Source: Mesorhizobium sp. J428 (GTDB taxonomy: Bacteria > Pseudomonadota > Alphaproteobacteria > Rhizobiales > Rhizobiaceae). Taken from it: a stretch of DNA of 64,000 nucleotides. The stretch is taken from positions 139,181 to 203,180 of the forward strand of contig NZ_JAJOMX010000005.1 in the NCBI RefSeq assembly GCF_024699925.1, in the 5' to 3' direction. Below the pieces are notes generated by a model. It searched no databases and was not told the DNA's origin. It worked only from the letters and a program-made list of their open reading frames with translations. Both the position numbers and the translations under genes were made by a program. Every line of letters begins with the position of its first letter. Position 1 is the stretch's first letter. Positions 19,937 through 38,684 of the stretch are shown here, one piece after another.

Positions 19937-20579
19937 TCAATGAACGATGTCGAGAAGCTTTTTTGCCTTTTGCTCCATGTCGAGCCGCACATCCTGGTGG
20001 TGTTTGTCGCGCGCAACCTGGGTGATGCCCTGAACGAAATCGAAGATGGAGGCAGGCGGGTGGCCCTCTTCGGCGAGTACAGCGTCGATGATCTTCGTGG
20101 TCTCGGCCCTTGAGAATCCTCGCTTGCGCAGAAAGGTGGTCCGGTCATCATCGTCGCGCGCGACAATTTGTTCCCGCGCCGACTTGATCCCGTTGATGAA
20201 TGGCATGGGCGAGGATTCAGCGAACCGGATCAGCGCCGGTTCGGCCTCGAGAGCGAAGCGAGACGCAGCGCACTTGGAATGCCGGATGGTGATTTCCTCA
20301 AAATCCTCGACCCCCCACAGATTGCGATTCTGGCACACTGCGCGCAGGTAGAAGCTTGCGATGCCGAGGGTTCGCGCCCCGACTTCCGAGTTCCAGCAAT
20401 AGAATCCCCTGAAGAAGAGATCGGGATCACCATTGGGCAGCTGGCCTGCTTCGATCGGATTCAGATCGTCGACAAGGAAGATGAAAACATCGCGATCAGA
20501 CGCATAGAGCGTCGTCGTATCCTGCGAGACAGCGACATTGGGATTGTAGACGCCCGTGGACCAGTCGAGCACTCCGGGA
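19937..20579 (-). pseudogene. DUF932-like gene, C-terminal third (interrupted)
   Basis: From the insertion boundary at 20579 leftward the frame reads (V)PGVLDWSTGVYNPNVAV, TTTLYASDRDVFIFLVDDLN, GFYCWNSEVGARTLGIASFY, NLWGVEDFEEITIRHSK and ends KAKKLLDIVH. This is the C-terminal part of a DUF932-like protein, a family common next to ParB on rhizobial elements. Beyond 20579 the sequence is element 1. The preceding part of the same gene is at 26943-27103 and the N-terminus at 38278-38684, all on the minus strand in collinear order. An open frame continues through the boundary to 21118 but has no family resemblance there. Confidence 0.85.
20574..20579. repeat. 6-bp direct repeat CCGGGA, left flank of element 1
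   Basis: The partner is at 26943-26948. Removing element 1 with one copy restores W-K-V-P-G-V-L-D-W in frame in the DUF932-like gene. Confidence 0.8.
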
Positions 20580-20764
20580 TAGATCACGTCACGGAACTGT
20601 CCTGATAGTCTTGTATGAGACGGTAGCGCAGGCGCCCTCAAGGGAGCATCAGCGTGCCTCCAGTCAGCATTGCGCCGGGAGATCCGCGCAGGGCGGAGGC
20701 GTAGCCGAAGCCCGGAGCGGATTTCCCGGCGCGGCCTCGATCCAGACCCCTTTGGAGGCATGCC

Positions 20765-21910
20765 ATGGCAATGATCGTTCGTGCCGCGCCTGGCTATCCT
20801 CCAATCCCGGCCGAGTTTCCCCTCCTCCTTTCCAATCAGATGCAGATCATCGAACCCGCCTTCGCCTATCTGATTGAGCAGGCTGAGTTGCGGGCGCACT
20901 CGCTGGAAACGGTCCGAACCTATGGCGAGCATCTTTACGACTGGTTCGACACGCTCGAACAATCGGAGCTGTCCTGGGACACGGTCGATGAAGGCACCAT
21001 CATGGCCTATCGAAACAGGATGCTTGAGACGCCGAGCCCGTATACGGGAAGGCCGTATGCCCGCTCGACCATCAATGACCGGGTCCGGTCGGTCTGCCGC
21101 TTCTACGCCTGGGCGCATCGCCGCAAGATGATCGACGAACTCCCGTTCAGCTATCGGGACGCACCGCCGATCAGAGCCGCCTCAAAGGGCTTCCTTGCGC
21201 ACGCGGCGGGCAAGCCTGCGCTGGGAAACATACTGACGGTCGCGGAATATGAAACCTTGCCTCGGCCGCTGCGCGTCCGCGATCTTCACCGGCTGCTGGC
21301 CGCCCTCGACATGCCCTATCGGCTGATCGCGGAGTGGGCGGTGACCAGTGGCATGCGACGGATGGAGCTATGTGCGCTCACGGTGGATCAGGTGCCGCGC
21401 AGCGACAGGCTGCACATGGAAGATCACCCGCTGGTGGGAATCCCGCTCACTGTCACGAAGGGCAGCCGAAGGCGCACGGTCTATCCGCCGCTGAGGCTCA
21501 TCGACCGCACCAACTGGTATATCGGAGAAGATCGCGCGGGGCTCATAACGCGGCTGCGGCGACGAGATTCGAGTTACGCGCCGCCGAATACGCTGTTCCT
21601 CAACAGACGTGGCGCGCCAATCACCAAAGCCCGGTTGTCGGCCGCGTTCGCGCGCGGCTTTGCCGCGGCGGGGTTGGACGGGTCTGCCCATTGGCTGCGA
21701 CACACCTTCGCGACGGTCATGCTGGTGCGGCTACAGGCGGAAGCGCAACGCAATCCCGACATCAATCCCCTCAAGGTCCTCCAGGTCCTGCTTGGTCATG
21801 CGTCGATCGAGACGACGGCGATCTATCTGCGCTGTGTCGAATTGCATGGAGACGAGATCGCCGAAACGATCGAGTATCTCTACGGACGCGTGATCGACGA
21901 TGCGTACTGA
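20765..21910 (+). CDS. tyrosine recombinase A of element 1 (TnpA-like)
   Basis: 381 residues; ATG 20765 sits behind TTTGGAGGCATGCC. The N-terminal SAM-like core-binding domain is at residues 25-130. The catalytic domain has all the residues: R in SGMRRMEL (near 199), HWLRHTFAT (H-x-x-R, near 307-312), LLGHASIETT (H near 345) and the nucleophile in AIYLR (Y near 353). Its length and motifs are those of TnpA of Tn554-type transposons. It is the first gene of a four-gene unit and overlaps the next by 11 bp. It likely performs strand exchange at the element ends together with B and C. Confidence 0.9.
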   Translation: MAMIVRAAPGYPPIPAEFPLLLSNQMQIIEPAFAYLIEQAELRAHSLETVRTYGEHLYDWFDTLEQSELSWDTVDEGTIMAYRNRMLETPSPYTGRPYARSTINDRVRSVCRFYAWAHRRKMIDELPFSYRDAPPIRAASKGFLAHAAGKPALGNILTVAEYETLPRPLRVRDLHRLLAALDMPYRLIAEWAVTSGMRRMELCALTVDQVPRSDRLHMEDHPLVGIPLTVTKGSRRRTVYPPLRLIDRTNWYIGEDRAGLITRLRRRDSSYAPPNTLFLNRRGAPITKARLSAAFARGFAAAGLDGSAHWLRHTFATVMLVRLQAEAQRNPDINPLKVLQVLLGHASIETTAIYLRCVELHGDEIAETIEYLYGRVIDDAY

Positions 21911-23666
21911 CCGCCGTCGCATCGACCGTCGGCTATCGGATGAGGCCCAACCCACGGTCTCGATTGAAGGTGGGTCGGTCATGCTGTTCCGGGATGCGTG
22001 GGGCGAGCCGGTGCAGCGGTTCGACCTCGGGCAACTCAATCTCCCGGCCGAGCTTGTTGCTCCCTATGCCGAGGCGTTCCGGGGACATCATGCGGCGTCG
22101 TCACCCGCCACGCGTCACCAGTGCTGGAACGCACTGAAGTTCTTTGCCCGCTTTCTCGCCGATAGCGGCAGTGTTCAGGCACCGGCTGATTTGACGACCG
22201 AATTGTTCGGCCGATACATCTTATGGCTGGACGCCTTGTCTTCCCGAACCGGCAAACCCTGTGCTCCGGGTCTGCGTCACAATCGCTATCAGCCGGTCAA
22301 GCTTCTGACCGAGTGGATGGCGAGACGACGGCCGGATCTGCTGCCGGCACGCCCATCCTTCCCCTTCAATCCGTTTCCCGGCAGGCATGCGCCGAAGGAA
22401 GGCGGCCGGCTGTCCGGCTCGCAGCTCAAGGCTATCCTGCGGTCCTGCTATGAAGAGATCGACGATGCCTGGGCACTCTTTGAGGAAGGACAGCGACTGC
22501 TTGCGGCTCCGGCAAGGAGCGACGATCCGGACGGCTTTGAAGCAATGTTGCGGGAATTCCATCGCCTCGGGCACGGCGTGATGCCATCGCGTCGTGCCTT
22601 GCCAGATCGGCTCGGTCGAAGGTTATACCTTCATGGTGGACACGACAGGTTCGAACGCCATCTTCACGTAACGCCAGACTGCCTGGCCTCCTTCTTCATC
22701 GCCATTGCGATCCAGACGGCGGGAAACGCCGAGGCGCTCCGGCTTATCGACCGCGATTGCATCGAGCCTCATCCGCTGATCGAACATCGGACGATGATCG
22801 ACTGGCAGAAGGGCCGCGCCGGACACCTGTTCAAACGCGCGCAGCGCCGATCCTTCGATCGCCGGCGGCGCTATGCGGCACCCAATCTCATCGACAAGGT
22901 GCTGAAAATGACCGCGTCACTGGCGGGGCGCGCACCTGCGAGTGAAAAGGATCGGCTGTTCCTGATGCGCAGGCCGGGCCGGGACGTCGGCGTCATCCAG
23001 CGCACGACCCTCGAAGGCGCCATGGCTCGATTCATCGAGCGGGCAAACCGGCGTATCTATGCATGGAATGCCGAACATCCCGACCAATTGCGAACGGCGT
23101 TGCCGCGCTTCCACACGAGGATGTTCCGGGGCAGCGTCGCCATCGAGCACTATCGAGCATCGGGCGGCGACGTGCGCGCGGCGCAGAGCGTGCTCAATCA
23201 TGCCAGCCCGGAACTCACCGATCGCTATATCAGGGGAGATCAAAGCCGCGCGCTCCAGCATGGAACCATCGCCAGGTTGCAGACTATGATGATGTCCTGG
23301 ATCCTTGAACCTCCCGGTGAAGCCAGGCAATGTTCGTCACCGTCGGCCCTTGCCGCGGAGATGTTCGGCCATCGCTGTACCGATCCGACGGCAGGTGGCG
23401 AAAAGCTCTGTCCTCACTTCGGCGGCTGCCTGTCCTGTCCGGGCCTGGTGGTGCCGATCGATGCAACGCATCTGGCGCGCATCCTTCTGGCGATAGAACA
23501 ACTGGAGAAGGCCCGCACACGCCTCGACCGGCAAAGGTGGGCACTGATCTACAAGCCCAGCCACGATCTTCTGGTCGAGAGTATTTTGCCGGACTTCCCT
23601 GTCGAACTCCACGGCGAAGCGCGCGCGCTGATGGCCTCGCTGCCCGCCTTGCCGACACTGGAGTGA
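21900..23666 (+). CDS. tyrosine recombinase-like B of element 1, Cys-rich C-terminus
   Basis: 588 residues, overlapping gene A by 11 bp. The fold is recognisable from a core-binding-like N-terminus, then QTAGNAEALRLIDRDC where the first catalytic arginine box would be (Asn replaces Arg), FHTRMFRGSVAI, and LNHASPELTDRYIRG with H and the Tyr nucleophile. A C-terminal cysteine cluster (HRCTDPTAGGEKLCPHFGGC, then LSCPG) probably binds zinc. The missing first arginine suggests it is a catalytically impaired or accessory recombinase, as in other multi-recombinase transposons. The element 2 homologue (34762-36605) shows the same Arg loss and a Cys cluster, so the deviation is ancestral, not decay. 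Confidence 0.85.
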   Translation: MRTDRRRIDRRLSDEAQPTVSIEGGSVMLFRDAWGEPVQRFDLGQLNLPAELVAPYAEAFRGHHAASSPATRHQCWNALKFFARFLADSGSVQAPADLTTELFGRYILWLDALSSRTGKPCAPGLRHNRYQPVKLLTEWMARRRPDLLPARPSFPFNPFPGRHAPKEGGRLSGSQLKAILRSCYEEIDDAWALFEEGQRLLAAPARSDDPDGFEAMLREFHRLGHGVMPSRRALPDRLGRRLYLHGGHDRFERHLHVTPDCLASFFIAIAIQTAGNAEALRLIDRDCIEPHPLIEHRTMIDWQKGRAGHLFKRAQRRSFDRRRRYAAPNLIDKVLKMTASLAGRAPASEKDRLFLMRRPGRDVGVIQRTTLEGAMARFIERANRRIYAWNAEHPDQLRTALPRFHTRMFRGSVAIEHYRASGGDVRAAQSVLNHASPELTDRYIRGDQSRALQHGTIARLQTMMMSWILEPPGEARQCSSPSALAAEMFGHRCTDPTAGGEKLCPHFGGCLSCPGLVVPIDATHLARILLAIEQLEKARTRLDRQRWALIYKPSHDLLVESILPDFPVELHGEARALMASLPALPTLE

Positions 23667-23670
23667 AACT

Positions 23671-25533
23671 ATGGCGCTGGCTGCACCGAGCAAACGAAAT
23701 GCTCCCGCACTGCCTCAGGCAATCTCCTCGACCTCGACCTGGAATGACGACATATGGCGCTTCGATCTTACCCGACCCGGTGTAACCGACACTAGCCGGA
23801 CGATCGACTGGACGTTCGAGCTTCTCGATGGCAGCCGGTTCACCGACCCGACATGGACGGTGTTGCGCGAGACCGTCAAATGCTTCCTGTGGTCGCTCAG
23901 AACAGACCCGCCGACAGGCAAGCGAAGGCTCGGACCCAGTTCCCTCATCTCGATCTTCCACCAGATGCGTGTTCTGGTCTGCTGGATGGTCAGCGAAGAC
24001 TATGACCGATTCAATCAGCTTGATGCCTATGCTGCGGCCCGATTCATGACCACGCTGACGGAACGACCGGGACGAAAAGGCGAAGCGCTGTCGCTTGGAA
24101 CCCGAGCCGGGTATCTGTCGACGCTGGCGCGCCTCCATTCTCAACGTGAGAAACTGGTCGACGGCGTTCCCGATGATCTTCGCAGATTCCTGGATGAATA
24201 CGGCCCCCGACTTCCCCGCCTCGATCGACAGGGGCGAGGCTTCCCCTATACGCCAGATGCGGTTGCAACGGCGCTGATCGGCGGCGCCCTCCGGCTCATC
24301 GGCGCGCCAGCCGACGATGTGATCGCGCTCCGCGATCGGGCCGCGGTTGCTTATGCCTACCGGCTTGATGGCAGGCCGACGCCGGCGAGAGAAGCGGAGG
24401 CTCGTCGAATGCTCGATGACTTCTCCTTCTCGACCTTGCCGAACGAGGACAGCCCATGGCACGCGCCAGTCGTGCAGTTGAAAGACATCCATAAGCTGAT
24501 CGATCGCATCTACGATGCCTGCTTTGTGGTGATCGCCTGGCTCGTCGGAGCGCGCGTCTCGGAAATCCTCGGGCTCGAGGCCGGATGCATCGAGCGACAT
24601 GTCGGCCCGGATGGCCAGGAGGTCACCTATCTGCATGGACGGATTTACAAGATGGCGACGGGCGACGGTGGCCAGCCTCATCGTTGGATCGCATCCAAAC
24701 CCGTGGTCCGTGTCGTCGACGTACTGGAGCGGTTGTCGGCACCCATCCGCAAGAAGCTTGGGACACGCAATTTGTGGATGCTGACGCGGGATCCAGCGCT
24801 GCTGCGACAGCCGATCGGCATCCCACACAGTGGAGCCTTCGGCGGCCGGCTGAACAGCAGCTTCCGAACAATGCTCGACCTTCCTCTTCATCAAGGAAGA
24901 CCTTGGCACCTGAACGCGCATCAGGGACGGAAGACGTTCGCGCGCTTCATCGGCAAGCGCGACAGGACAGGCCTTCATGCCTTCCAGGAGCATCTCGGAC
25001 ACGTGAGCCGGGTGATGACCGATACCGCCTATGTGGGCACAGACTTCGAGCTCGCCGAATTGATCAACGACGAAATCCTGAGGGAAACACGGGCAGCGCT
25101 CGAGGACCTTCTGACGGCGTCAAATCTGTCGGGCCATGCCGGGCGCATGATCGCGTCACGGTCGCCGTTCCGGGGCCGCACACACGATGGCGATCTCGGC
25201 GAATATATAGACTTCGTCCTGAAAGACAGCGGAATGGTGCTTGGCGTCTGCGACTGGGGTTACTGCCTCTATCGTCGTGAGCATTCAGCTTGCCAGGGCG
25301 ATGACCACGGACCGAATGCAGTGTTCCGCACACAGAGCGCATGCGCCCGCTGCGCCAATTTTGCGGTCAGCGAGCGCCATAGAGCGGTTTGGGAGGATCG
25401 GAAGGTGCGCAATGCTCAGTTGCTTGAGCATCCTGCCCTCGATCGTGAAAGCCGTAAGCTCGCTCAAGAGCGCATCCTCGAATGCGATCGAATCCTCCGG
25501 GGGCTGGATGGGGAGAGCGGGGGTGTCCGGTGA
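23671..25533 (+). CDS. tyrosine recombinase C of element 1 (TnpB-like)
   Basis: 620 residues, starting 5 bp after gene B. Catalytic landmarks: VGARVSEILGLE (Arg, near 296), AHQGRKTFARFIG (H-x-x-R/K), HLGHVSRVMTDTAYVG (H and Tyr nucleophile, near 447-457). The C-terminal part has a cysteine array: GVCDWGYCLYRREHSACQG and SACARCANF, probably a zinc-binding module. Its size, position and Cys-rich tail fit TnpB-type large recombinases of Tn554-like elements. Two recombinases here (A and C) appear fully catalytic. Confidence 0.87.
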   Translation: MALAAPSKRNAPALPQAISSTSTWNDDIWRFDLTRPGVTDTSRTIDWTFELLDGSRFTDPTWTVLRETVKCFLWSLRTDPPTGKRRLGPSSLISIFHQMRVLVCWMVSEDYDRFNQLDAYAAARFMTTLTERPGRKGEALSLGTRAGYLSTLARLHSQREKLVDGVPDDLRRFLDEYGPRLPRLDRQGRGFPYTPDAVATALIGGALRLIGAPADDVIALRDRAAVAYAYRLDGRPTPAREAEARRMLDDFSFSTLPNEDSPWHAPVVQLKDIHKLIDRIYDACFVVIAWLVGARVSEILGLEAGCIERHVGPDGQEVTYLHGRIYKMATGDGGQPHRWIASKPVVRVVDVLERLSAPIRKKLGTRNLWMLTRDPALLRQPIGIPHSGAFGGRLNSSFRTMLDLPLHQGRPWHLNAHQGRKTFARFIGKRDRTGLHAFQEHLGHVSRVMTDTAYVGTDFELAELINDEILRETRAALEDLLTASNLSGHAGRMIASRSPFRGRTHDGDLGEYIDFVLKDSGMVLGVCDWGYCLYRREHSACQGDDHGPNAVFRTQSACARCANFAVSERHRAVWEDRKVRNAQLLEHPALDRESRKLAQERILECDRILRGLDGESGGVR

Positions 25534-25984
25534 AAAAACGGGCATCACGCCCCAGCAAAAGCGCCGTTATGCTACTGCCCAGCGCCTGCGCGCGGCGCTT
25601 GCTCGGTTGTTGTTGGCGCAGGAGCGAGGCGCGAAGCTGTCGGTCGCCGCACTTGCGCGTGAAGCGGGCGTCGGGCGCAATGCAATCTACGTCAATCATC
25701 GCGACGTCGTTGCGGAGTTGCTGCAGGCGGCTTCGCATCGGATCGACGCTGCAGTGGCATCGAAAGAAGCGCCGGAAACCGATTGGCGCGCCGTCGCTAC
25801 CGAGTTGAGGGAGCAGGTTCGCGGTCTGGCAACCGAGAATGCGATGTTGCTTCGGCGCGCGCAGGACGCCGAACAGGCAACTGCGCGCGCCGAAAAAAGA
25901 GCCGCGAAGCTCGATGCGGAATTGCGGGCGCTGCGGTCTCCCGTGCATCTGCACGGGACGGAGCCGAACACCCGCAACCGTTGA
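25508..25984 (+). CDS. TnpC-like HTH/coiled-coil protein of element 1
   Basis: About 158 residues; it overlaps the end of gene C. The start is ambiguous between ATG 25508 and GTG 25523. The N-terminal half carries a helix-turn-helix (KLSVAALAREAGVGRNAIYV, then NHRDVVAELLQAA). The C-terminal half is a charged coiled coil (LREQVRGLATENAMLLRRAQ, then EKRAAKLDAELRAL). HTH plus coiled coil after the recombinases is the layout of TnpC of Tn554, which orients and stimulates transposition. Its stop abuts the stop of the convergent ardC with no gap. Confidence 0.78.
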   Translation: MGRAGVSGEKTGITPQQKRRYATAQRLRAALARLLLAQERGAKLSVAALAREAGVGRNAIYVNHRDVVAELLQAASHRIDAAVASKEAPETDWRAVATELREQVRGLATENAMLLRRAQDAEQATARAEKRAAKLDAELRALRSPVHLHGTEPNTRNR

Positions 25985-26857
25985 TCAAGCGGCCTGTTCA
26001 TGCCGAGCGGATTGCTGCGCGTGCATCCAATCGGCGGCTTGTTGCGCCTTGCTCGCGGCCGTGAAGATGGCGCGGGAATCGTCCTTCAACACCTTGATCC
26101 ACGAGGCAACATAGGCCGCATGATCGGGACGCGGATGGTGGGCGATCCCGAGATCGGCAAGGACAAACCCGCTGAGAATCTCGACGCAGCATTCCTCCGC
26201 GGCATAGGCAGCGGAGCCAAACCGGCCCGAGAGATCGCGATCAAGCCGCTTCTTCGACCCCGAGGCGTGCCCGCATTCATGCAGCAAGACGCCATAGAAC
26301 GACGCGGCATCGCGGAAGGAGGCGAAGTCCGGCATGAACACCGTGTCCGAAGACGGAAGATAGTAAGCTTCCGATCCGCCGAACACGGTCTTGATGTCGA
26401 GGTTGGCGATGAACGCCTCTGCGTGCGCGAGACGCTCGTTCTCCGGCAGCGTGTCCGTCGGCGGGCGCTCGTATCCGTCCACCTGAGCGACATTGAACAC
26501 CGAAAATGCCCGGGCGAACATCCGGCGGCGGCCACCTTCATCATCGTCGTCATCGTCATCAGCCGGCTCGGAGGAAGCGATCTGCTTCCACAGCACCACA
26601 GTGGTCGAATGCTCTCCCTTGCGCACCTGCGCGCCGGCGTCCTGCCATTGGCGGTAGGTCCCCCATAGACCGTCGCCGTAACCTGCGGCCATGGCTGCGA
26701 CCCAAAGCGCCACCGTATTGATGCCGCGGTAACGCTTGCCAGACGAAATATTGGTTGGCCGTGCAGCGCTCGTACCGTCGTGGAACCACGGCGGGTGCCA
26801 CTCGCCTGCACCTCCCTCGATTGCCGCGATGATCTCCGCCGTGACGCGGGTATACAT
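25985..26857 (-). CDS. ArdC-like antirestriction protein, element 1 copy
   Basis: 290 residues as an open frame. The N-terminal ssDNA-binding domain has VTAEIIAAIEGGAGEWHPPW, YRGINTVALW and WGTYRQWQDAGAQVRKGEHS. The C-terminal zincin-like metallopeptidase domain has LLHECGHASG (HExxH variant HECGH) with AAYAAEECCVEILSG supplying the distal Glu. ArdC proteins protect incoming single-stranded DNA from host restriction. The true start may be ATG 26879 (MAAQDRADVY), whose frame joins this one only if two bases lost near 26855 are restored. The element 2 copy (31012-31944) has that full N-terminus. The gene ends 26942 minus ~60 bp from the element boundary. Confidence 0.85.
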   Translation of the reverse strand: MYTRVTAEIIAAIEGGAGEWHPPWFHDGTSAARPTNISSGKRYRGINTVALWVAAMAAGYGDGLWGTYRQWQDAGAQVRKGEHSTTVVLWKQIASSEPADDDDDDDEGGRRRMFARAFSVFNVAQVDGYERPPTDTLPENERLAHAEAFIANLDIKTVFGGSEAYYLPSSDTVFMPDFASFRDAASFYGVLLHECGHASGSKKRLDRDLSGRFGSAAYAAEECCVEILSGFVLADLGIAHHPRPDHAAYVASWIKVLKDDSRAIFTAASKAQQAADWMHAQQSARHEQAA

Positions 26858-26942
26858 CTGCCCGATCTTGAGCCGCCATGATCAGGCCCTCGCTGCGCAG
26901 GAGGTGTCAGCACTCAAGAATACAGTTGCAAAATGACCTAAG

Positions 26943-27103
26943 CCGGGAACTTTCCAGCGCGTGTCGCCGGTGCCGTTGCCTGCGATCTTCTGAACGGCCT
27001 CCACCAGTTCGTGGTCGAAAATCCGCCCATAGTCAGGACCTGTCACCGCGCGCAACTCCACGCGGCCGTTTTCGATCTCCAGCGTCTTGACCTGTTCGGC
27101 GCG
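26943..27103 (-). pseudogene. DUF932-like gene, middle 53 codons between two elements
   Basis: Read on the minus strand this 161-bp island encodes RAEQVKTLEIENGRVELRAV, TGPDYGRIFDHELVEAVQKI and AGNGTGDTRWKVPG, the exact section missing between the two other DUF932 fragments. Its left edge carries CCGGGA (shared with 20574-20579) and its right edge GGCGCG (shared with 38278-38283). Both joins are in frame. This proves that elements 1 and 2 are two separate insertions into one gene, 155-161 bp apart. Confidence 0.9.
27098..27103. repeat. 6-bp direct repeat GGCGCG, left flank of element 2
   Basis: The partner is at 38278-38283. Collapsing the two copies joins S-H-R-A to E-Q-V-K in frame in the DUF932-like gene. 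Confidence 0.8.
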
Positions 27104-27228
27104 TTATCTGAACAGTCAAGCTGTCTCAGTCGGATTTTGCGGCGTCGTTTGCCTGAAAACCGCAGGGTCCGATCGATCTCGGCCCCGTGAGACAGATTCG
27201 TGTAGCGCGCAGAGGTCCTGACGGCTGC

Positions 27229-29490: not shown

Positions 29491-29494
29491 GGCT

Positions 29495-29734: not shown

Positions 29735-29735
29735 C

Positions 29736-30029
29736 TCAGCTGCCCTGTTGTCGAGGGTGTGCGGGATAGCCGGCATTGGCGCTGGCAGCCGCGATGGCGT
29801 CGGAGTTCGTCTTCGTGTCTTCGAAGGTGACGGTCGCGGTCTTGGCTTCGAAGGAGACGACCACATCCGAGACCCCGGGGACCGCCGCCATCGAGGTCTT
29901 CACGATGTAGGGGCAGGAAGCGCAGGTCATGTTGTCGACGGCGAAAGTGACCGTGCGGTCGGCGGCGAAGGCGGCCGAAGCCGTCATGATGGCGCCGATC
30001 AGGGTGAGCGTGCTCAAAAGCTTGTTCAT
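29736..30029 (-). CDS. merP: periplasmic mercury-binding protein MerP
   Basis: 97 residues: a cleavable signal peptide (LLSTLTLIGAIMTASAAFA) and a heavy-metal-associated domain with MTCASC (GMTCxxC type) followed by PYIVKTSMAAVPGVSDVVVS and VTFEDTKT. It scavenges Hg(II) in the periplasm and passes it to the membrane transporters. Start ATG 30029 has AGGAGACC upstream. It lies between merT and merF in one operon. Confidence 0.92.
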   Translation of the reverse strand: MNKLLSTLTLIGAIMTASAAFAADRTVTFAVDNMTCASCPYIVKTSMAAVPGVSDVVVSFEAKTATVTFEDTKTNSDAIAAASANAGYPAHPRQQGS

Positions 30030-30055
30030 CAGGCAGGTCTCCTCTTGGTCTGGTA

Positions 30056-30481
30056 TCAGGGGGCAAGCAGCAGCGGGGCGACGTAGTCGAAGGCAAAGGC
30101 GGCTGCGACGAGCACCGTTGCGCTCCACAGTGCAATCTGAACGAGACCGCTGGGGATCGGGCGTGCGCAGGCGGCGTCATCGGCGCAGGCTTGCCGCGGC
30201 TTCCAATAGACGAGGTAGTAGCCGTAGCCGAGGACGCCTACCGTCCCCGTGACGAAGAATGGCTTGTATGGCGCGAGCGCCGTCAGGTTGCCGATCCAGG
30301 CGCCGCCGATGCCGAGACTGAATAGGATGAGCGGGATGATGCAGCAGGACGAGGCGGCAAGCGCACCGAGAACACCGCCGACGGCAACCAGGCGCTGCCG
30401 CCCGGCTTCGCCACGCTGTGCCGCCGCCAGGTTCTCTGCAGTCGGCGCAATCTCCGCCGTTCCGTGTCGAAATACACTCAT
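30056..30481 (-). CDS. merT: mercuric transport protein MerT
   Basis: 141 residues with three membrane segments. The first contains the metal-binding vicinal cysteines SSCCIIPLILFSLGIGGAW, the MerT signature. A second Cys pair is in the loop after helix two (QACADDAACARP). The N-terminus is longer than in classical MerT (about 25 extra cytosolic residues). First gene of the leftward mer operon, divergent from merR. Confidence 0.88.
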   Translation of the reverse strand: MSVFRHGTAEIAPTAENLAAAQRGEAGRQRLVAVGGVLGALAASSCCIIPLILFSLGIGGAWIGNLTALAPYKPFFVTGTVGVLGYGYYLVYWKPRQACADDAACARPIPSGLVQIALWSATVLVAAAFAFDYVAPLLLAP

Positions 30482-30522
30482 GTCGGGCCTCGCCTTCCTT
30501 GCCGAATTCCTATCTGCGCGCT

Positions 30523-30553
30523 AATGTGCGGTCTGTAGCAACTACAGGGTCAA
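30523..30553 (-). promoter_or_regulatory. mer operator/promoter (PmerT) with MerR dyad
   Basis: On the minus strand TTGACC (-35, complement of 30548-30553) is followed by the perfect dyad CTGTAG-TTG-CTACAG (30533-30547) and, about 19-20 bp downstream, a weak -10 (CACATT/ACATTA). The over-long spacer bisected by a dyad is the hallmark of MerR-activated promoters. merR starts 14 bp away in the other direction, so MerR should also repress itself. Confidence 0.8.
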
Positions 30554-30566
30554 GAGGGAGTTTGCG

Positions 30567-30995
30567 ATGCGCGATCACACCGGCGTGAAGGGCCTGCAGC
30601 GGGCCGAGCTCGCGCGGCGGACGGGCAGCAATCTGGAGACCGTGCGCTATTACGAGAAGGTCGGGCTCTTGCCCGAGCCGCCACGCACGATGGCGGGCTA
30701 TCGGAGCTACGACACCGCGCACGAGCGGCGGCTCCGCTTCGTCTTGCGGGCGCGCGAGCTCGGCTTCTCGCTCGATGAGATCCGTGAGCTGCTGCGTCTC
30801 GTCGACGAGCGCGACCGGCCTTGCGCCGAGGCAAGCACTATCGCCGCGACGCATCTCGACGACGTGCGGGCGAAGATCGCCGATCTGAAGCGCATGGAAA
30901 GAGTGCTGAAGGACGTGGTCGCGCAATGCGCCGGCGGCACGCGGCCGGAATGCCCGCTGATCGAGACGCTGTTCCAGGAATCGGCTGTCAACTGA
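30567..30995 (+). CDS. merR: mercury-responsive regulator MerR
   Basis: 142 residues. The winged HTH is at 10-50 (LARRTGSNLETVRYYEKVGL), followed by a long dimerization helix. The Hg(II)-binding cysteines are C86 (RPCAEAS), C121 and C129 (AQCAGGTRPECPLIE), the same pattern as C82/C117/C126-type MerR. The PECPLIE end matches MerR rather than CueR/ZntR. It represses, and with Hg(II) activates, the divergent merTPF-BA operon through the dyad at 30533. Start ATG 30567 has GAGGGAG upstream. Confidence 0.92.
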   Translation: MRDHTGVKGLQRAELARRTGSNLETVRYYEKVGLLPEPPRTMAGYRSYDTAHERRLRFVLRARELGFSLDEIRELLRLVDERDRPCAEASTIAATHLDDVRAKIADLKRMERVLKDVVAQCAGGTRPECPLIETLFQESAVN

Positions 30996-31011
30996 TCGAG
31001 TTGAAGGGCGC

Positions 31012-31944
31012 CTATGCGGCGCCCCTGACATCGTGCTCACGAGTCTCGGCCTGCTGGTCGTGCATCCAGTCGGCGATCTGCTGTGCCTTGCTGGCAGCGG
31101 TGAAGATGGCGCGCTTGTCGGAGCGCAGCACCTCGAGCCATGAGGCGATGTAGCGGGCGTGGTCGGGCCGCGGCTCGACGCTGAGATTGAGATCGGCGCA
31201 GATCATGGCGCTCAGGAGCTCGACCGTGCATTCCTCCATGGCGTAAGCGGCCGAGCCGAACCGTCCGGAAAGATCGCGGTCGAGGCGGTGCCTGGCGCCC
31301 GAGGCGTGCCCACATTCGTGAAGCAGCACGGCGTAGTAGGCGACGGCGTCGCGGAAGCAGGCGAAGTCGGGCATCTGCACATGGTCCCTGGAGGGGATGT
31401 AACAGGCCTGCGATCCGCCGTGGTGGATGTCGATGCCGAGAGCGGCGCAGAAGCGTTCGGCATGCGCGATCCGTTCGGCCTCGGGCAGCACCGGCATCTC
31501 GGGCGGCGTGTAACCGTCGACCTGCGCGCAGTTGAAGACCGTATAGCCGCGGGCGAACATGCGCTGGGCGGGCTCGTCGCGATCCTCGTCGCCGTCCTCA
31601 GCGTCTGCCTCACTGTTGCGACCGGAGATCTTCCAGAACACGACCAGGTGGCCGCGCTCGCCCTTGCGAACCTGAGCGCCGAGCGCCTGCCATTGGCGGT
31701 AGGTGGCCCAGATGCCAACGGAATAGCCCGCCGCTTGCGCCGCGGCCCAGAGCGCGATGACGTTGATGCCGCGATAGGCCTTGCGCGAGGCGAGGTTGAC
31801 GGGCGTGGTGATGGCCGATCCGTCATGATGCCAGGGCATCCGGTACTCGCCGGCGCCGGCCTCTATGGCGGCGATGATCTGGCTGGTGACGCGCTCGTAG
31901 ACATCGTTGCCAGTCCGGGCTTGGCTGCTGCGATTGGTGGTCAT
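31012..31944 (-). CDS. ArdC-like antirestriction protein, element 2 copy
   Basis: 310 residues, ATG 31944 behind CAGGAGGCACCC. The N-terminal ssDNA-binding domain has VYERVTSQIIAAIEAGAGEY, YRGINVIALW and WATYRQWQALGAQVRKGERG. The C-terminal zincin-like domain has LLHECGHASG and SAAYAMEECTVELLS. It is clearly related to, but diverged from, the element 1 copy: both end with AIFTAASKAQQ-ADWMH-QQ. ArdC shields entering single-stranded DNA from type I restriction. A 168-bp palindrome lies immediately upstream. Ends 17 bp from the convergent merR stop. Confidence 0.9.
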   Translation of the reverse strand: MTTNRSSQARTGNDVYERVTSQIIAAIEAGAGEYRMPWHHDGSAITTPVNLASRKAYRGINVIALWAAAQAAGYSVGIWATYRQWQALGAQVRKGERGHLVVFWKISGRNSEADAEDGDEDRDEPAQRMFARGYTVFNCAQVDGYTPPEMPVLPEAERIAHAERFCAALGIDIHHGGSQACYIPSRDHVQMPDFACFRDAVAYYAVLLHECGHASGARHRLDRDLSGRFGSAAYAMEECTVELLSAMICADLNLSVEPRPDHARYIASWLEVLRSDKRAIFTAASKAQQIADWMHDQQAETREHDVRGAA

Positions 31945-31945
31945 G

Positions 31946-32113
31946 GGTGCCTCCTGTGCTCGCCCTCTCCGTCGAGGGCGAGGCGGCAGGGGCAGACGCG
32001 GCGAGCCGGCCCGTCACACCCTGTTCTCGGTGCTGGTGCGGAACAGGGTTGATGGGCCGGCAGCGTCTGCCACAACCCGAGCCCTGCCTCGACGGGCGAG
32101 CACAGGAGGCACC
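31946..32113. repeat. 168-bp nested palindrome upstream of ardC
   Basis: The outer arms are a perfect 20-bp inverted repeat: GGTGCCTCCTGTGCTCGCCC (31946-31965) and its complement at 32094-32113. Inner arms include GGCAGACGC with GCGTCTGCC, CCGGCCC with GGGCCGG, and ACCCTGTTC (32018-32026) with GAACAGGGT (32041-32049), all around a centre near 32031. The ardC ribosome site (AGGAGG) is inside the left arm. As single-stranded DNA it would fold into one long hairpin. Confidence 0.85.
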
Positions 32114-32162
32114 GGCCATGATCGGCGGAGCGCGGACCGACCGGTGCGTGGATACGCGGCTC

Positions 32163-32604
32163 TCAGCCGGCGCCGTCTTGGGGCGAGCGCCGCAACGGAA
32201 TGACCCTCGTGTTGCCGGATCGGGCCAGTTCCTCCCGCAGGCCCTCGATCACGGCATCACGCTCGGCGACCTGCAACGTCAGCACCTGGATACGCTGCGC
32301 GAGCGTGCGGGCGAGCGCCCGCAGCTCGGCCATCTCGGCCCCGCGCACGGCGCGCAGTTCCGCTTCGAGTGCGCGGATGCGTCCCTTGAGCACCAGGGGC
32401 GACGATTGCCGGCGGCGCGCTTCGGCGGTACGGAACTCGGCGAGCACATCGACCGCGCGGTTCGCCGTCGCCCGGCTGACGCCGGCCTCGCGCGCCAGGT
32501 TTGAGACTGTCAGCGCGCCGTCGGGTACGCTCGGGGCGGCCGTCGAGCAGCCGCGCCATGGCCGCCCTCAGCGCGGCTTCGCTCTTCGGCCCGAGCGCGG
32601 TCAT
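32163..32604 (-). pseudogene. TnpC-like protein of element 2, frameshifted
   Basis: From ATG 32604 the frame reads TALGPKSEAALRAAMARLLD; the helix-turn-helix (DGALTVSNLAREAGVSRATA) and the coiled coil (LKGRIRALEAELRAVRGAEM, then LAQRIQVLTLQVAERD) are in another frame. One extra base in the C/G runs at 32523-32536 separates them. The composite is the element 2 counterpart of 25508-25984 (HTH plus coiled coil after the recombinases). The start overlaps the recombinase C stop (ATGA at 32604). Confidence 0.75.
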
Positions 32605-34762
32605 GCATCACCGTCCATGAGCGGTGCGATCAGCCGGCGCTTGCGCTCGTTGTCCGCAAGGATCGCCGTGCGCTGCAGCGGCGACAGGCGCCGGTCGGCC
32701 AGAAGCGCTTCGCCCTCGGCGATCGAAGCCTGCCACGGCTCGCGGTGCCGGTCGGTCAGGCAGGCGTTCGGGCAGCGGTCGGGGCTGCATCGCGACAGGG
32801 CTGGCGCCGTTTGCTCGGCATCCGGTGCATCTTTGAGGCAGAGCGCGGTCGCCGCATCGAACAGGCAGTCGTTGAGGAAGCCGACATGCAGGGTCCGGCC
32901 GAGATGGGCGAGCATGGTGCGCAGCCGCTTGCGGTCCGTGATCCGGCCCGGAAGATCGCCAAGCTCGTGCTGGACGCGGGCGAACTCGCGGAGCAGTCGG
33001 TGAGCGCCTGGCCCCGCCGGGCCTTCACGGCGAAGACAGGCCTCGTAATGGGCGACAATATCGTCGAGTTGGCCGAGCGCACGCTCGCGCTCGATCGCCA
33101 GGCGGAAATCGGCCGGCGCCGATCCGGCATAGCCCTCGAACATGGCGACCGAGGCATGCTTGTACTGGATCTTGCCCGCGACCGTGCCGAACGGCCGGTT
33201 GGCGATTACCAGGCGATGGTGCGGCGCAGTTGCCGTGTCGTGAACTTCCATGGCTCGTCGCCGACGCGCGGGATCGCCGGTCCCCCTTCCGAGCGTCCAT
33301 CGAGGCCGTCGCGGAACAGGTTGAGCGTCGGCGTCGCACCCATCCCGAGATGATCGTTGCTCCAGGGCCAGTCCTTCAGCGCCACCCACAGCGACGACAA
33401 TCCCTTCTCCTTGCGATTGCGCGCCGAGAGTACCTCCATGACCGCGACGGCGCGGGCGACCGGCTCGATCGTGATCCAGTCGGCCTGAGCGCCTCGTGCC
33501 CCATGGCGCTTGTAGACGGTGCTGCGCACCCGGTAGCGCTCGACCAGGCCGTCGGCGCTGCGCATCACCGACACGCAACCCGGCTGCATCGCCTGCACCT
33601 CGCTGTCGCGCATGCCGGTGAGGTAGGCGCAGACGAGATAGCAGGCACCCTGCAGCATCCGTTCCTCGCGGGCGAGGCTGAGGGCGTCGAAGCGCTCGCG
33701 CCATGGCAAGCCGGTGTCCGGATCGGTCGAGATCGGCGTGTCGAGGCCGCCCACCTCGGTGCCGAGCTCGGCTGCCGCCTGCTCGATCAGCCGCGCCGTC
33801 GGTTCGGACTGGCTGATGCGGCCGCTCTCTCGCGCACCGGCGTGAAGCCGCATCAGGTGAAGATTGTAGGGCGGGGTCTGTTCGCCGGTGAGCGGGTCGA
33901 TGCGGCGGGCGACGTTGGGCGCGTGCTCCCAGATCGGTACGCCTCGGCCCATGGCCCGGCGCACGTCGAGCCACTTCGCCACGCGGGCGCGATAGGTGCT
34001 GGCGACGGCTCGTCCGGTCCGCTCGTCCCGCGCCATCACCTTTGCGCAGCGGGCTTCGAGAGCGTCCAGTTCTGCCCGCGCGGCGAGGATATCGGACGCA
34101 TAGACTTCGACATATCTGAGCGCCCAGCGCAGCATGGCGCCGATGACCGGCTCGGGAATCCGCGGCGTGGCGTTCTCGGCGGGCGCCGGCGGCCGGCCCG
34201 CAACGCGGTGCGCCGCACGTCCACGCCACGGCAGGAAACCTATGCCGCCGCCGGTTAGCCATGGCGCCAGGTGATGCAGGTCGATCGGCACCTCGACATA
34301 CTTCACCGTCTCGTGCGGCGTCCGCCGCCCGCCGTCGCGGGCATGCACCAGGTAGGCGTCGAGCAGCGCCTGATCGATCCGGCTGAGATCGACGGCGCCA
34401 GTCCGCGCGCGGAGGAACGCGGCGAAATGCTGGACGTAGCGCAGCAGCCGGATCGCCGAGGTCGCGCCGCAGGGCGCCCGGTATCCCGGCACATGAATGC
34501 GCAGCCGGGCGATCACATACTCCTTCGCCAACCGTCGCGTGACGGGATCGGCGATGCCGGCGAAGTTCAGCCGGTAGTTGCTGTAGCGGGCGTTGACCCG
34601 GAAGATGGCGGCGCCCAAATCCCAGAGATCGTCCCCGAAGCGGGGAAGCTCACTGCGGTCGACATCGTCCCTGACCGCGACACCGGCAAGCACGGGCTCG
34701 CCGTCGCCATAAATGGCCGACGGCAACGACGTCCGCGGCGAGAGCGTGATGGAACCCGGCAT
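32601..34762 (-). pseudogene. tyrosine recombinase C of element 2, one-base frameshift
   Basis: ATG 34762 to a premature stop at 33206 gives 518 residues ending KFTTRQLRRTIAW; the following frame continues VIANRPFGTVAGKIQYKHAS, then MFEGYAGSAPADFRLAIERE and a Cys-rich tail (LSRCSPDRCPNACLTDRHRE). Restoring one base (TGGTA-n-ATC near 33208) gives an uninterrupted ~720-residue recombinase. Arg box YLTGMRDSEVQAMQ, RQLRRT for H/R-x-x-R, and the Tyr in FEGYAG are recognisable. Start overlaps the preceding gene stop (TAATG). Confidence 0.8.
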
Positions 34763-36605
34763 TATGGCGCTGCCGCTTCGGGCGGCAGGTAGATGAGCGC
34801 CGGGTCCGACGCCGCAATCTGGCGAGCCTCCTCAATCTCCGCGTCGGCAAACCGGGACAGAATCTGATCGGCAATGCGTCCGTGAACGCGGCCGAACTTG
34901 GCGATCCAGTCGCCTTCGCTGAGCGCCTGCCGTTGTGCCCGGATGAAGTTGAGGAATGCGAGAAGCGCGGGCAGCTTGCGGGCGGTAATCACCGCATTGC
35001 TGCATTCGAGACACCCCCAGAAGGGCGACGGACAGGCTTCCCCTTCTAGCCCGAACGGGCTCTTGTAGAAGCCGGCGCAACTGGCGAGCCAGACATCCTG
35101 CTCGCCGCCGAGCAGCGCGCCGATCGCGGCGGTACCGGCAACGGGAAGACTGGTTGCCTGCTCGGGATCGGCCAGGACGGCACCCTCCTCTTCCGAGGAC
35201 AGGACGCACGGCCGCAACGCGGCATCGAGCGCGATCGCACATGGCGTCGGCCACGGTCGCCTCATGCAGGTGGCGAAGCGCGGGGATATCGGCGTAGTGA
35301 TCGGCCGCGACTGCGACGCTGTGGCCAACGGCGAAGCGGTCAAGCTGGCCACCGGTGCGCCGATGCCCATGCCGCCTTGTGCGTCTTGCGCAGGCGCGTC
35401 AGGTTGAGGCGAAGGGGCCGGCCCTGTTCATCGAGGATGCCGCTTCGGCCGATCCATGAAGCCACGGGCTCCTTCATGCTGATAGGACGCGGGGTCAATC
35501 GGCCCCAGGCGCAGTGGACCCAGAGCGTGTCGGCGCCAAGCCGGCTTCTCGCCGGACCGGTCCATTGCAGCACCTTGCGGATCAAACCGCCCGGCGTCGA
35601 GGAGCCGCCGTCGCGCCCGCGCAGCCGCTTCCACTCGGCGCCGCGCGCCCGCCGCTTGCAATACTCAACCTCGACATAGCCGCCGGACGGGTTCTTCAGG
35701 CAGTCCGCCCGCAGGCTCTTGATCGCTTCGATCTCCAGGCCGGTGTCGAGCGAAATGAGGACGATGAGCGGCACGAGGTCGGCAGCGATCAGATGCCGGC
35801 GGCCGTGCAGATCGTGGATCAGGCGATCGTTCGGCAGGCCGCTTTCACGGCGCAGCGTGTAGAGGCACTTGAAGAGAGCATGCCGGTGCCCGATGACGCC
35901 TTCCGCGTCGATCACCGCCATCACCTGTTCATGCGCCCTCGCCAGAACGCGGCCCCGATCGGCATCCTCGACGGTCGGGATGCGATCGGCCTCGGCGAAG
36001 CGGCGGATGATAGCAGCGAGATCGGCGCGTGCCGCGGTCCGCAATGCCGTGGCGATGTCGTCGCCATAGGCATCGCGCGGCCGGGCGCGCACACCCGGCC
36101 GGTCGCTCGTATACATCAGCCGTCGCGAGGCATCGGGTGGCAGAAGGCCGGGCTCCGCCGCCTCGGCGAGGCGGAGCAGGTTGAGCACCTTGCTCATTCG
36201 ATGCAGCCGGTGATTGGGATGCAGGCCGCTCTCCTCCATCCATGCGTCGAAGCCGTCGATCAAGGCAGCGCTCACGTCAGAGAGCCGTGCGACGTGCATT
36301 CCGGCGGAATCGAGATAGCGCCAGAACGTCTTGAGCGCATTGGCATAGGCATAGGCCGTCGAGATCGAGCCGGCCGGACCGCCGACCTGGCAGGCGCGCC
36401 AGAGCGCGCCGGCAAACGTCCGGGCCAGTGCCTTGCGGCCAGCGAGCATCGTCAGGTCGATCGCCCTGCTGCGGTCTGCCAGCGTGACAGTGAAGCGGAG
36501 CGACGCGATCGCAGCGGCGGCCTCGCGCTCGGGATCGGGCAGCGCCTCGGGAAAGAGGGCACGGCGGCCCGGCCGTCGTGCTGGAGCAGTCGTCGCGGCC
36601 ATCAT
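34762..36605 (-). pseudogene. tyrosine recombinase-like B of element 2, two frameshifts
   Basis: ATG 36605 (ATGA overlap with gene A) opens 421 residues to a stop at 35340. The continuation TGGQLDRFAVGHSVAVAADH-YADIPALRHLHE, containing the H and Tyr of the active site, is in a second frame. The C-terminal part ALRPCVLSSEEEGAVLADPE, with the cysteines CPSPFWGCLEC, is in a third. The shifts lie near 35350-35370 and 35231-35246. As in element 1 gene B, the first Arg box is altered (DTGLEIEAIKSLRADC). Confidence 0.8.
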
Positions 36606-38011
36606 GCTGCATCACCAGCCGTATCGTCCGCCCAGCGGTCCACGGCCGCCTCGACCAGCTCCTGCGCCTCATTGAGACTGTCGAGATAGATGTAGGTGCT
36701 GGTGATGCTTGCGTGCCCCAGGAGGTGCTGGAGCTTCTGCAAGGGGTCGCCGAGCATCCGGCGATAGGCCGCGCCGTGCCGGTCGTGCGGATCGAACACG
36801 GTTCCGATCTGCTCGCGGATCAGCATGGAGAGCATGTTGACGGCGAAGGTGTGCCGCAGAGTGTGCGGCGTCACCTCGACCTCGATACCGAAGCGGCGGC
36901 AGCGGACGCAGGCGCGCCGAAAAGCGGCTTCCCAGGTTGCGGAGGGCACAGGCCGGCCGGCTTCCGTCAGCCAGAGCAAGCCGTGCTGCGCTCGGCCAGG
37001 CGCGCCGATCAGCACGCGGCGGCGCTCACCCGGCGTCAGGCGGTCGAGCCGGACCTTCTTGCCCGCCGGATCTCTTGCCTTCCCATCCTCCGGTACCAAC
37101 CACAGCGGATCGGACACCTGGGGTTCGGACCGGGCAGTGGAGATCGCGCGCTCAAGATCGACATAGTCGGCCATGAGCGCCAGCACCCGGCGGGGAACGC
37201 GGATGCGCCGCGGCCGCCCGCCCTTGGCGATCGGACCAGGAAGGTCGAAGGGAATCGAGCGTGATGCGGGCTCCGGAAGCTCGGCCAGAAGCAGGCTGCC
37301 GGCTTCGGTCAGCCGCAGGCCGGTCGTGACCAGAAGCTCGGCAAACAGCGCATTGCGCTCGCCGTTGCGGCCGCGCCACGTCCGATCTTCGGAGCCGTCG
37401 GGAAGCCGGCCCCGCAGCCCCACCTCGCGGAACAGCAGGTAGCGGCCGAGATCGATATAGCGGGTGTCGTGGCGGCGCGCGGCGCGCTCGCGGGCGCGGT
37501 TGGCCGCCACGGCGAGCACGGCGCGGCTGCCGGCGGTCCGACGAAGGGTGACGCCATAGCTGAAAGGCGAGGCAGAGATGATCCCTTCCTCGACGGCCCA
37601 GCGATAGAGCTTGTCGAGCGCGGCGATGCTTCGGTTCCAGCTCGCCGCTGAAATGCGGAACGCCGCGTCCGACAGGCGACGTGCCCGGTGAAAGGCCAGG
37701 ACATCATGGCGGTCGGCCTGCCAGACCGTCTTGCCACCGCGTCGCTCGCTGAGAAAGCGCGCCCAGACGAGAATGTCGCGGGCATAGGAACGCCACGTGT
37801 TCGGCGACCGCGCGCCCATGCCCGGACAGGCGCGGAAGAACCGGTTGAGATTGAGATCGTAGCTGCCGTCATCCATCAGGATGAACGGCATGCCGTCGAT
37901 CAGCCCAGCGCGCTCGACCACGTCGAGCGCGCCGGGTGCGAGGCTCACTGCAAGGTCATCAAGGAAAAGCGGACGCGAAATAGCGTCAAGATTGGTAAAA
38001 TACAAATGCAC
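36602..38011 (-). CDS. tyrosine recombinase A of element 2
   Basis: 469 residues, the only intact recombinase of this trio. The start is taken as GTG 38011; no good ribosome site is visible, so the start is uncertain. Catalytic residues: Arg in TTGLRLTEAGSLLL, TPHTLRHTFAVNML (H-x-x-R-H), LLGHASITSTYIYLDS (H and Tyr). Its N-terminal SAM-like domain contains NTWRSYARDILVWARFL. It is 88 residues longer than element 1 gene A and begins about 265 bp from the right end of the element. Confidence 0.87.
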   Translation of the reverse strand: MHLYFTNLDAISRPLFLDDLAVSLAPGALDVVERAGLIDGMPFILMDDGSYDLNLNRFFRACPGMGARSPNTWRSYARDILVWARFLSERRGGKTVWQADRHDVLAFHRARRLSDAAFRISAASWNRSIAALDKLYRWAVEEGIISASPFSYGVTLRRTAGSRAVLAVAANRARERAARRHDTRYIDLGRYLLFREVGLRGRLPDGSEDRTWRGRNGERNALFAELLVTTGLRLTEAGSLLLAELPEPASRSIPFDLPGPIAKGGRPRRIRVPRRVLALMADYVDLERAISTARSEPQVSDPLWLVPEDGKARDPAGKKVRLDRLTPGERRRVLIGAPGRAQHGLLWLTEAGRPVPSATWEAAFRRACVRCRRFGIEVEVTPHTLRHTFAVNMLSMLIREQIGTVFDPHDRHGAAYRRMLGDPLQKLQHLLGHASITSTYIYLDSLNEAQELVEAAVDRWADDTAGDAA

Positions 38012-38277
38012 GCACGATACCTAAGCGGAGCGCCTTCGGCGCAAGTTATTGTCTTATGTGCGAGGGGTTCCCCTCGCGCTCTCCCGCTCGCCGCGTGGCA
38101 GGGGTGCAGGACTAAGCCTGCACCCCATGAACAAGCTTGTGGAGCCGCCGCCGCGTAAAGCGTTGTCCTCGCTTCGCTGCGGGAACGCTTGACCCGGACG
38201 TCTGACGAGCTTCACCGGAACCGTCGGTGAGGCGCTTCCATGCCTGATTCTGAGACAGGATTACAGAGTCAGGATAA
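38012..38277. other. right end of element 2 (noncoding)
   Basis: 266 bp with two perfect hairpins: GCGAGGGG-tt-CCCCTCGC (38060-38077) and GGGGTGCAGG-actaag-CCTGCACCCC (38101-38126). The terminal inverted repeat occupies about 38250-38277. The hairpins may be recombinase-binding accessory sites or may insulate the element from outside transcription. The promoter of recombinase A is presumably here. Confidence 0.5.
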
Positions 38278-38283
38278 GGCGCG
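38278..38283. repeat. 6-bp direct repeat GGCGCG, right flank of element 2
   Basis: Identical to 27098-27103; see element 2. Confidence 0.8.
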
Positions 38284-38684
38284 GTGTGAGGTCAGGCCGC
38301 ATGCTGAAGGTTGATGCCGGCCAGCGCGGCAGGGAGCTGCCGCAGGTAGTTCGCGGGCGCCCCGACCAGGCTGGCGAGCTGGCCGAAGCTCCAGTGCGTG
38401 GGAGCGACCGGCGCGTGCGCGTCGGGCAGCATCAACGTCAGGCGTTCGGGATTGTCGCGGCTCGCTGCGACGCGGATGTTTTCGCTTTCGACGATGCGGG
38501 TCTTGCAGCGTTTTGATCGCCTGGCCACCGAATTGTGGAGGTCGGTGAGCGAGAGATAGCGCTCGTCGGCCGGACGATTGAACCATTCAGACGAAACGCG
38601 CCCGATACGCTCGCCTTTACTGATGTCGACCTTGTAGCCGTTGGGCGCCATGCGCGTCGGCGCGTGAATTTGCATAAGGGTCAT
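38278..38684 (-). pseudogene. DUF932-like gene, N-terminal third (interrupted)
   Basis: ATG 38684 (GAGGAGAACAGCA upstream) gives MTLMQIHAPTRMAPNGYKVD, ISKGERIGRVSSEWFNRPAD and WSFGQLASLVGAPANYLRQL, the N-terminus of a DUF932-like protein. An extra GC dinucleotide (CATGCGGCC near 38302) creates a premature stop at 38292; without it the frame reads INLQH-GLTSHRA up to the insertion point and joins the 27103 fragment in frame. The 6-bp GGCGCG at 38278-38283 is the right repeat of element 2. Original position: directly upstream of the ParB-like gene. Confidence 0.85.

Follow-up and report, generated by a model that had tools for sequence, protein, structure and literature searches.

Two site-specific transposons probably entered one DUF932-like gene in turn on a Mesorhizobium plasmid

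A stretch of 64,000 nucleotides from Mesorhizobium sp. J428 (contig NZ_JAJOMX010000005.1, positions 139,181 to 203,180 of the forward strand; hereafter the window) contains a DUF932-like gene that lies in three pieces, separated by two elements. Each element carries three recombinase-like genes (A, B and C), a small fourth gene (D) and an ArdC cargo gene, and we refer to them as trio 1, which also carries mercury resistance (mer) genes, and trio 2. Loci compared with the window are given by L numbers. The features are as follows, in window positions.

19937..20579, minus strand: C-terminal piece of the DUF932-like gene, from alignment to intact genes.
20574..20579, plus strand: trio 2 attL core CCGGGA, on the gene A side, at the DUF932 junction.
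20580..26942, plus strand: trio 2, another site-specific element, 6,369 bp when one core is counted; from its junctions and from L003, where the element occupies the identical site.
20765..21910, plus strand: trio 2 gene A, tyrosine recombinase; both integrase domains and the catalytic motif.
21900..23666, plus strand: trio 2 gene B, recombinase-like, without the first catalytic Arg; residues read by eye.
23671..25533, plus strand: trio 2 gene C, large recombinase-like protein with R, HxxR, H and Y; no Pfam hit.
25454..25978, plus strand: trio 2 gene D; its L003 homologue scores above the Pfam cut-off for TetR_N and below it for DUF6262.
25985..26857, minus strand: trio 2 cargo ArdC, motif EECCVE; ArdcN and MPTase-PolyVal domains.
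26943..26948, plus strand: trio 2 attR core CCGGGA, at the DUF932 junction.
26943..27103, minus strand: middle piece (M) of the DUF932-like gene, 53 codons; 77-85% identity to intact L011 and L013-L016.
27098..27103, minus strand: trio 1 attR core, CGCGCC on the gene strand, adjoining GACTGTTCAGATAA.
27104..38277, minus strand: trio 1, a site-specific transposon carrying mercury resistance, 11,180 bp if one 6-bp core is counted; ends placed by the terminal motifs and the DUF932 junctions.
27229..30481, minus strand: mercury resistance genes merBA, MerF-like and MerT, laid out as in Bosea.
31012..31944, minus strand: trio 1 cargo ArdC, motif EECTVE; ArdcN and MPTase-PolyVal domains both matched.
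32166..32534, minus strand: trio 1 gene D, small helix-turn-helix protein with a broken 5' end; matches Bosea residues 24-146.
32601..34762, minus strand: trio 1 gene C, large recombinase-like, frame broken; homologous to a 697-residue Bosea protein, with one single-base gap relative to L077.
34762..36605, minus strand: trio 1 gene B, large recombinase-like, frame broken; homologous to a 613-residue Bosea protein that lacks the first catalytic Arg, with two single-base gaps relative to L077.
36602..38011, minus strand: trio 1 gene A, tyrosine recombinase; PF00589 and PF02899, with R, HxxR, H and Y read in the Bosea homologue.
38278..38283, minus strand: trio 1 attL core on the gene A side, CGCGCC on the gene strand, native-type, adjoining TTATCCTGACTCTG.
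38278..38684, minus strand: N-terminal piece of the DUF932-like gene, codons 1-135, from blastn and tblastn to intact genes.

Contig C4 of the same genome has an intact gene for a 396-residue protein (L011), and the N-terminal (N), M and C-terminal pieces align with this gene collinearly, N at L011 positions 1646-2050, M at 2045-2205 and the C-terminal piece, from its base 2, at 2201 onwards. In L011, adjacent pieces overlap by 6 bp at each junction, with a mismatch at the outermost base of the second overlap. Further intact copies were matched on plasmids of relatives, namely Mesorhizobium 131-2-5, Aquibium, Aminobacter MDW-2 and M. huakuii 7653R. The pieces are thus consecutive parts of one gene, as proposed in an earlier note made from the window's letters (the original prediction), and the middle segment on which that proposal was staked is present in the intact relatives. 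Its proposal of two separate insertions also holds. Plasmid pMSNZP2077A of Mesorhizobium sp. NZP2077 (L003) carries trio 2 alone, at the same DUF932 position and with the other site uninterrupted, and we therefore take the two events to be real. Trio 2 is, on the same grounds, probably older and shared by descent with NZP2077, and trio 1 probably arrived later. The two sites lie 155 bp apart, and the elements are opposite in orientation and differ in their termini, just as first described.

In-frame rejoining of the pieces was only partly borne out. Both junction peptides, SHRAEQVK and WKVPGVLDW, are present in the intact protein, but the N piece has a 2-nt excess over the intact gene about 20 nt ahead of its junction. 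In the sequence as assembled, this excess places the start codon out of frame with M and brings in a stop before the junction. A second and noisier assembly of the region (C5:1-19000) is free of the excess, which may therefore be a sequencing error. Compared with window positions 32192-51231, the second assembly is 98.0% identical and shows 198 gap bases across its 19 kb; the plasmid contig appears to end in an untrimmed, error-rich circular overlap, which would give a true plasmid of about 171 kb. Because the C5 copy is taken as this overlap, it is not counted as another insertion; L054, a candidate for a further independent insertion on the same plasmid, was dropped as this noisy duplicate.

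The intact protein scores 18.7 bits against Pfam DUF932, below the gathering cut-off of 23 bits, and most relatives listed in PLSDB are annotated 'DUF932 domain-containing protein'. PDB sequence searches with this protein and with the C protein returned nothing useful. Two other damaged copies of the gene were seen: one on the largest contig of the same genome is split into frames and holds no trio element (L012, G000:C1:2133456-2134381), and in one on an M. amorphae plasmid, other DNA of about 250 bp interrupts the gene near codon 274 (L017:9446-10887).

The recombinase sets of the two elements are only distantly related. Proteins A, B and C of trio 1 and trio 2 share 23-30% identity over their aligned parts (29.6% over 348 residues for C). 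In both trios the Arg, HxxR (RxxR in C of trio 1), His and Tyr residues are present in A and C, whereas B lacks the first Arg, as read by eye, for trio 1 in the Bosea copy. Among NCBIfam hits at E<=1, no gamma-mobile-trio model was recognised by name. Bosea plasmids match window positions 27094-38281, and the element ends share only TTATC..TGA and CTGTCTCAG blocks. A further trio 1 relative, with 57% identity in A and 43-45% in B, is found on the largest contig of the window's own genome (L055, G000:C1:2317302-2319107); its cores are TCGGCA and TCGGCG and its site differs from that in the window.

For trio 2, a family-wide search of 394 genomes with its B protein found no close copy except the window, and statements on trio 2 therefore rest on the window, L003 and L005. 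The last of these, a trio 2 relative on a Mesorhizobium L-2-11 plasmid, lies in an ArdC gene near codon 25. Nested insertions are seen there (L005:1-16400), a further trio sitting inside the ArdC cargo of the element that is itself in ArdC; at about 8730-8760 the inner element, with core CTCGTG, interrupts ArdC at the codons for its HExxH-type motif. Trio 2 relatives at about 50% identity (L061, L065-L067) lie in neither DUF932 nor ArdC.

Relatives of trio 1 come from a scan in which its aligned B proteins were run against genome_contigs, a collection described as covering 84,980 species; the best 80 of 188 relatives were used. We define the mercury clade as loci whose A protein is at least 80% identical to that of Bosea. 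It comprises 33 loci, including the window, L001 and L002 of Bosea, and L048. The duplicate L054 is not among them, nor is L004, a Bradyrhizobium betae remnant that yielded neither A nor B of trio 1. After removal of duplicates (L048 and L092, letter for letter L091, and L107, the same insertion as L095) and of loci with no usable flank (L069, L071, L080 and L085), 26 distinct copies could be read. Record titles of the relatives from the scan are mostly alphaproteobacterial, the exceptions being drafts labelled Burkholderiales, Phycisphaerae or Bacillota and a few labelled only Proteobacteria; two scans of viral contigs found no relative. Most of the mercury-clade relatives carry mer genes, but not all 33 loci do. 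None occurs in L084 or in the complete copies of Mesorhizobium sophorae, in whose five loci (L072-L076) no mer gene was found and three of which show a whole length of about 7.4 kb; some other mercury-clade contigs without mer end too early to judge.

All 26 copies lie at one of two sites, codons 134/135 of the DUF932-like gene (10 copies) or about codon 240 of ArdC (16 copies), and in the same orientation wherever this can be read. More distant relatives, with 42-51% identity in A, comprise 30 loci, 26 of them with a readable flank. The ArdC site is occupied in 21, one of which (L138) was assigned by a short right-hand peptide only; L115, L122 and L131 lie at ..EELRA|ELR or near it, and L112 and L126 elsewhere. 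A rhodobacterial branch (A about 61%; L063, L064, L097-L100, L104 and L105) inserts after ..FRHRALRHHA or a variant of it, a third conserved target in a gene that we take to be DUF6915. On another Mesorhizobium plasmid (L006), a trio 1 relative with 42-52% identity in A, B and C lies in the same DUF932 gene, about 70-80 bp from both window sites. Three recombinase sets have therefore struck one stretch of about 160 bp.

These data qualify the earlier suggestion that DUF932 genes are a hot spot for this class of transposon: the gene is a recurrent target, but the statement is too broad for the class, since ArdC takes 16 of the 26 mercury-clade insertions, distant trios lie elsewhere and occupancy is rare. 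In 293 of 316 matching plasmid records, a single place spans at least 80% of the protein. A DUF932 match is present in 54 of 397 genomes, and a trio in the gene was found only in the window's genome and in G279. Six partial DUF932 loci were examined and one, L048, contained a trio; no trio proteins were found at the truncations in G299 and G069 (L049 and L050). The accessible literature that was searched, with few subscription papers in it, showed no earlier report of DUF932 or ArdC as targets.

The six bases at the element ends follow different rules on the two sides. On the A side, the core is of the type native to the interrupted gene in 25/25 mercury-clade copies (CGNGCN or CGTGGA for DUF932, [GA]TNGCN for ArdC), while the distal core is of the foreign type in 6/18 (Fisher P 0.003). 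ArdC-type distal cores occur in the DUF932 insertions L088, L089 and L094, and DUF932-type distal cores in the ArdC insertions L075, L077 and L079. The native types were defined from uninterrupted genes. DUF932 has Arg at this place in 34/34 (codons RA in 30 and RG in 4), and background ArdC reads EE[LIVMA][VI]AE in 62/70, with Arg there in none, among the matches listed; these 70 are 30 loci returned and 40 picked further down the listing, and include L179, which is itself interrupted. In the 17 complete pairs, the two cores are identical in 4, against a mean of 1.9 when distal cores are shuffled (P 0.10). As agreement in type, given below, is also not significantly above shuffles, the distal core is nearly independent of the site.

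We consider it highly probable that two site-specific transposons entered the DUF932-like gene one after the other, trio 1 by a mechanism that carries a passenger core. Each would be driven by its tyrosine-recombinase-like A, B and C proteins together with a small DNA-binding D protein. Trio 2, common to the window and NZP2077, would have come first and trio 1, with its mer genes, afterwards. A circular copy of trio 1 would form that retains the 6 bp beside gene A. The circle would then insert, in fixed orientation, at an NNNGCN|GA core at DUF932 codons 134/135 or about ArdC codon 240, so that the A side keeps the target's 6 bp, while the 6 bp carried as passenger from the prior home end up at the distal side. 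The sequences show directly that two genes are targeted in a fixed orientation, that the core beside gene A is of native type and the distal one often foreign, and that near-identical copies occur in both genes; the circle, the strand exchange and the choice between copy-out and cut-out are steps that we infer. Under such a footprint rule, the identical CGCGCC cores in the window only show that the previous home shared that core.

Several points weigh against this reading. The passenger rule depends on the six foreign-type cores among 18 and is read on trio 1 only, trio 2 having few copies and a core that includes a wobble base. Core types at the two ends agree in 12/17 pairs compared with 8.9 in shuffles, a slight and non-significant excess (P 0.14). 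In the set with 42-51% identity, cores are identical in 6/15 complete pairs. L076, one of the 16 copies counted under ArdC, combines an ArdC flank at the A end with a DUF932 flank at the far end, which probably reflects a mis-join between copies in the contig of a draft genome with five such loci; it was omitted from the core pairs for its mixed flanks, and its DUF932 side would add one foreign-type distal core. Finally, the target motif common to both genes is short (GC.GA) and does not by itself explain the specificity.

The cargo ArdC differs from the target ArdC at the insertion motif itself. In the mercury clade it reads EECTVE in 27/27 sufficiently long rows (25 once two duplicates are removed; the motif scan did not include L002), and the target reads EELVAE or EELIAE. 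Among 20 cargo rows of the more distant set, we found EECCVE in 7, EEICAE in 6, EEATAE in 4, EELTAE in 1 and EELVAE in 2. We read the altered motif as that of a self-avoiding cargo, possibly one that stands in for the resident ArdC that the element breaks. The alternative, that it merely reflects the ancestry of a separate ArdC lineage, is in our view evenly poised against this. Cargo ArdCs form one clade (28/28 rows, Shimodaira-Hasegawa-like approximate likelihood ratio test 99) with 0/66 background rows inside, in a quick tree with a midpoint root, and ancestry could alone explain the mercury clade. The cargo of L111 and L134 keeps EELVAE, and the distal core TGCGCC of L125 could derive from an EEICAE-type gene, in which case some altered motifs may still serve as targets. 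Mere ancestry sits less well with the several ways in which the motif is altered within the clade (CTV, CCV, ICA, ATA, LTA), when 69 of the 70 background sequences listed keep the Ala, or with the cargo-type core ACGGTC occurring in 0/18 mercury-clade distal cores. The trio 2 cargo falls among ArdCs from relatives of trio 1 despite their different recombinases, so that a single ArdC lineage travels with recombinase sets that share only 23-30% identity. Tentatively, we suggest that the family may alternate between ArdC and the DUF932-like gene, keep a six-base record of its last home and carry a target-altered rescue ArdC.

A further question is whether trio 1 is dead in this plasmid, given the broken B, C and D frames of the window copy. 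The nearest copy, L077 from Aliihoeflea sp. 40Bstr573, is 99.91% identical over 10,931 bp, and the frames break at four single-base gaps relative to it; its distal flank is ArdC, its distal core is the DUF932-type CGCGCC, and its other end is missing. Since the breaks coincide with these gaps, in a contig with noisy duplicated ends, sequencing error is as likely a cause, and we regard a dead element as possible but somewhat doubtful.

Spread of filled sites by homologous recombination or plasmid descent, instead of repeated insertion, would account for trio 2, which occupies the same site in the window and L003 within one 85% identical stretch and was probably inherited by both, and for L095 and L107, which are one insertion. 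As a general explanation it is very improbable, because trio 1 elements 99.7-99.98% identical lie in flanks that are 66-93% identical where alignable, and in two unrelated genes. A 12.7-kb variant illustrates this point. Its eight copies (one without a flank, and L095 and L107 counting as one insertion) are 99.88-99.99% identical, whereas their 400-bp flanks share 78-91% identity among different ArdC insertions and 89-93% between two DUF932 insertions; some flanks do not align, the other target gene having been hit. Likewise, the element of L087, in ArdC, is 99.7-99.9% identical to those of L088 and L089, in DUF932. The simplest reading is that the element has moved recently and repeatedly between two unrelated genes.

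Ordinary transposition with a 6-bp target-site duplication, which the identical 6-mers flanking both window elements, and their collapsing in the original prediction, had suggested, is scarcely credible and was rejected because the cores of relatives are unequal (the 4/17 identical pairs given above, with a mean of 1.8 mismatches in 6), no DDE transposase was found among the scanned element proteins, and sites and orientation are fixed; on this comparison the 6-bp repeats in the window are not target duplications.

If the footprint reading is true, public genomes preserve the route from donor to recipient, and the jumps of a mercury-resistance element could be traced without any experiment. 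One recombinase set that uses two targets, and whose left and right cores differ at several of the six positions, would allow a direct test of how core homology acts in tyrosine recombination. By disrupting an antirestriction gene while supplying an altered copy, such an element would amount to a natural form of rescue design, which could explain why ArdC is common on elements of this kind. Recoded rescue cargo, replacing the function that the element destroys, would then have a natural counterpart.

We compared the trio elements with four known systems. GInts likewise combine three recombinases and a small D protein with high site specificity, mercury cargo, 6-nt staggered cuts and imperfect att repeats, and distant GInts share one target, ssb (PMC5385486). 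Homologues of gin are mentioned in Alphaproteobacteria (Bardaji 2017, PMC5385486). However, GinC lacks the first Arg and GinA and GinB are complete (PMC5385486), whereas here C has this residue (TGMR, VGAR) and B lacks it. Tn554 shares the 6-bp footprint, the tyrosine recombinases and one small helper, but has two recombinases and TnpC only (PMC10214605), against three large proteins and D here, and a unique integration site (PMC3414803). RIT elements also have three adjacent tyrosine recombinases and occur on alpha- and betaproteobacterial plasmids and chromosomes (PMC3414803). They differ in having proteins of 315-410 residues and 34-bp terminal inverted repeats, with no fourth gene listed (PMC10214605); the A, B and C proteins here have 381-472, 588-613 and 620-697 residues.

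Strand-biased circularizing integrative elements (SEs) are described mainly from Gammaproteobacteria, and the survey reports no Tfp/Srap homologues and no ginC-ginD blocks in Alphaproteobacteria (PMC10214605). The present elements would place an SE-like layout in that class, and differ in their mostly alphaproteobacterial hosts, two alternative target genes and ArdC and mer cargo. The SE gene order of intA, tfp (without the full catalytic set), intB (large, RHRY) and srap (PMC10214605) is matched by A, B, C and D, and both systems have imperfect inverted ends and few targets. In SEs and Tn554, the native six bases lie beside intA and the donor's six at the other end (PMC10214605); trio 1, the element in which this could be read, shows the same arrangement, with native 6 bp at attL and passenger 6 bp at attR. 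Altogether, the gene layout and the core rule fit SEs best.

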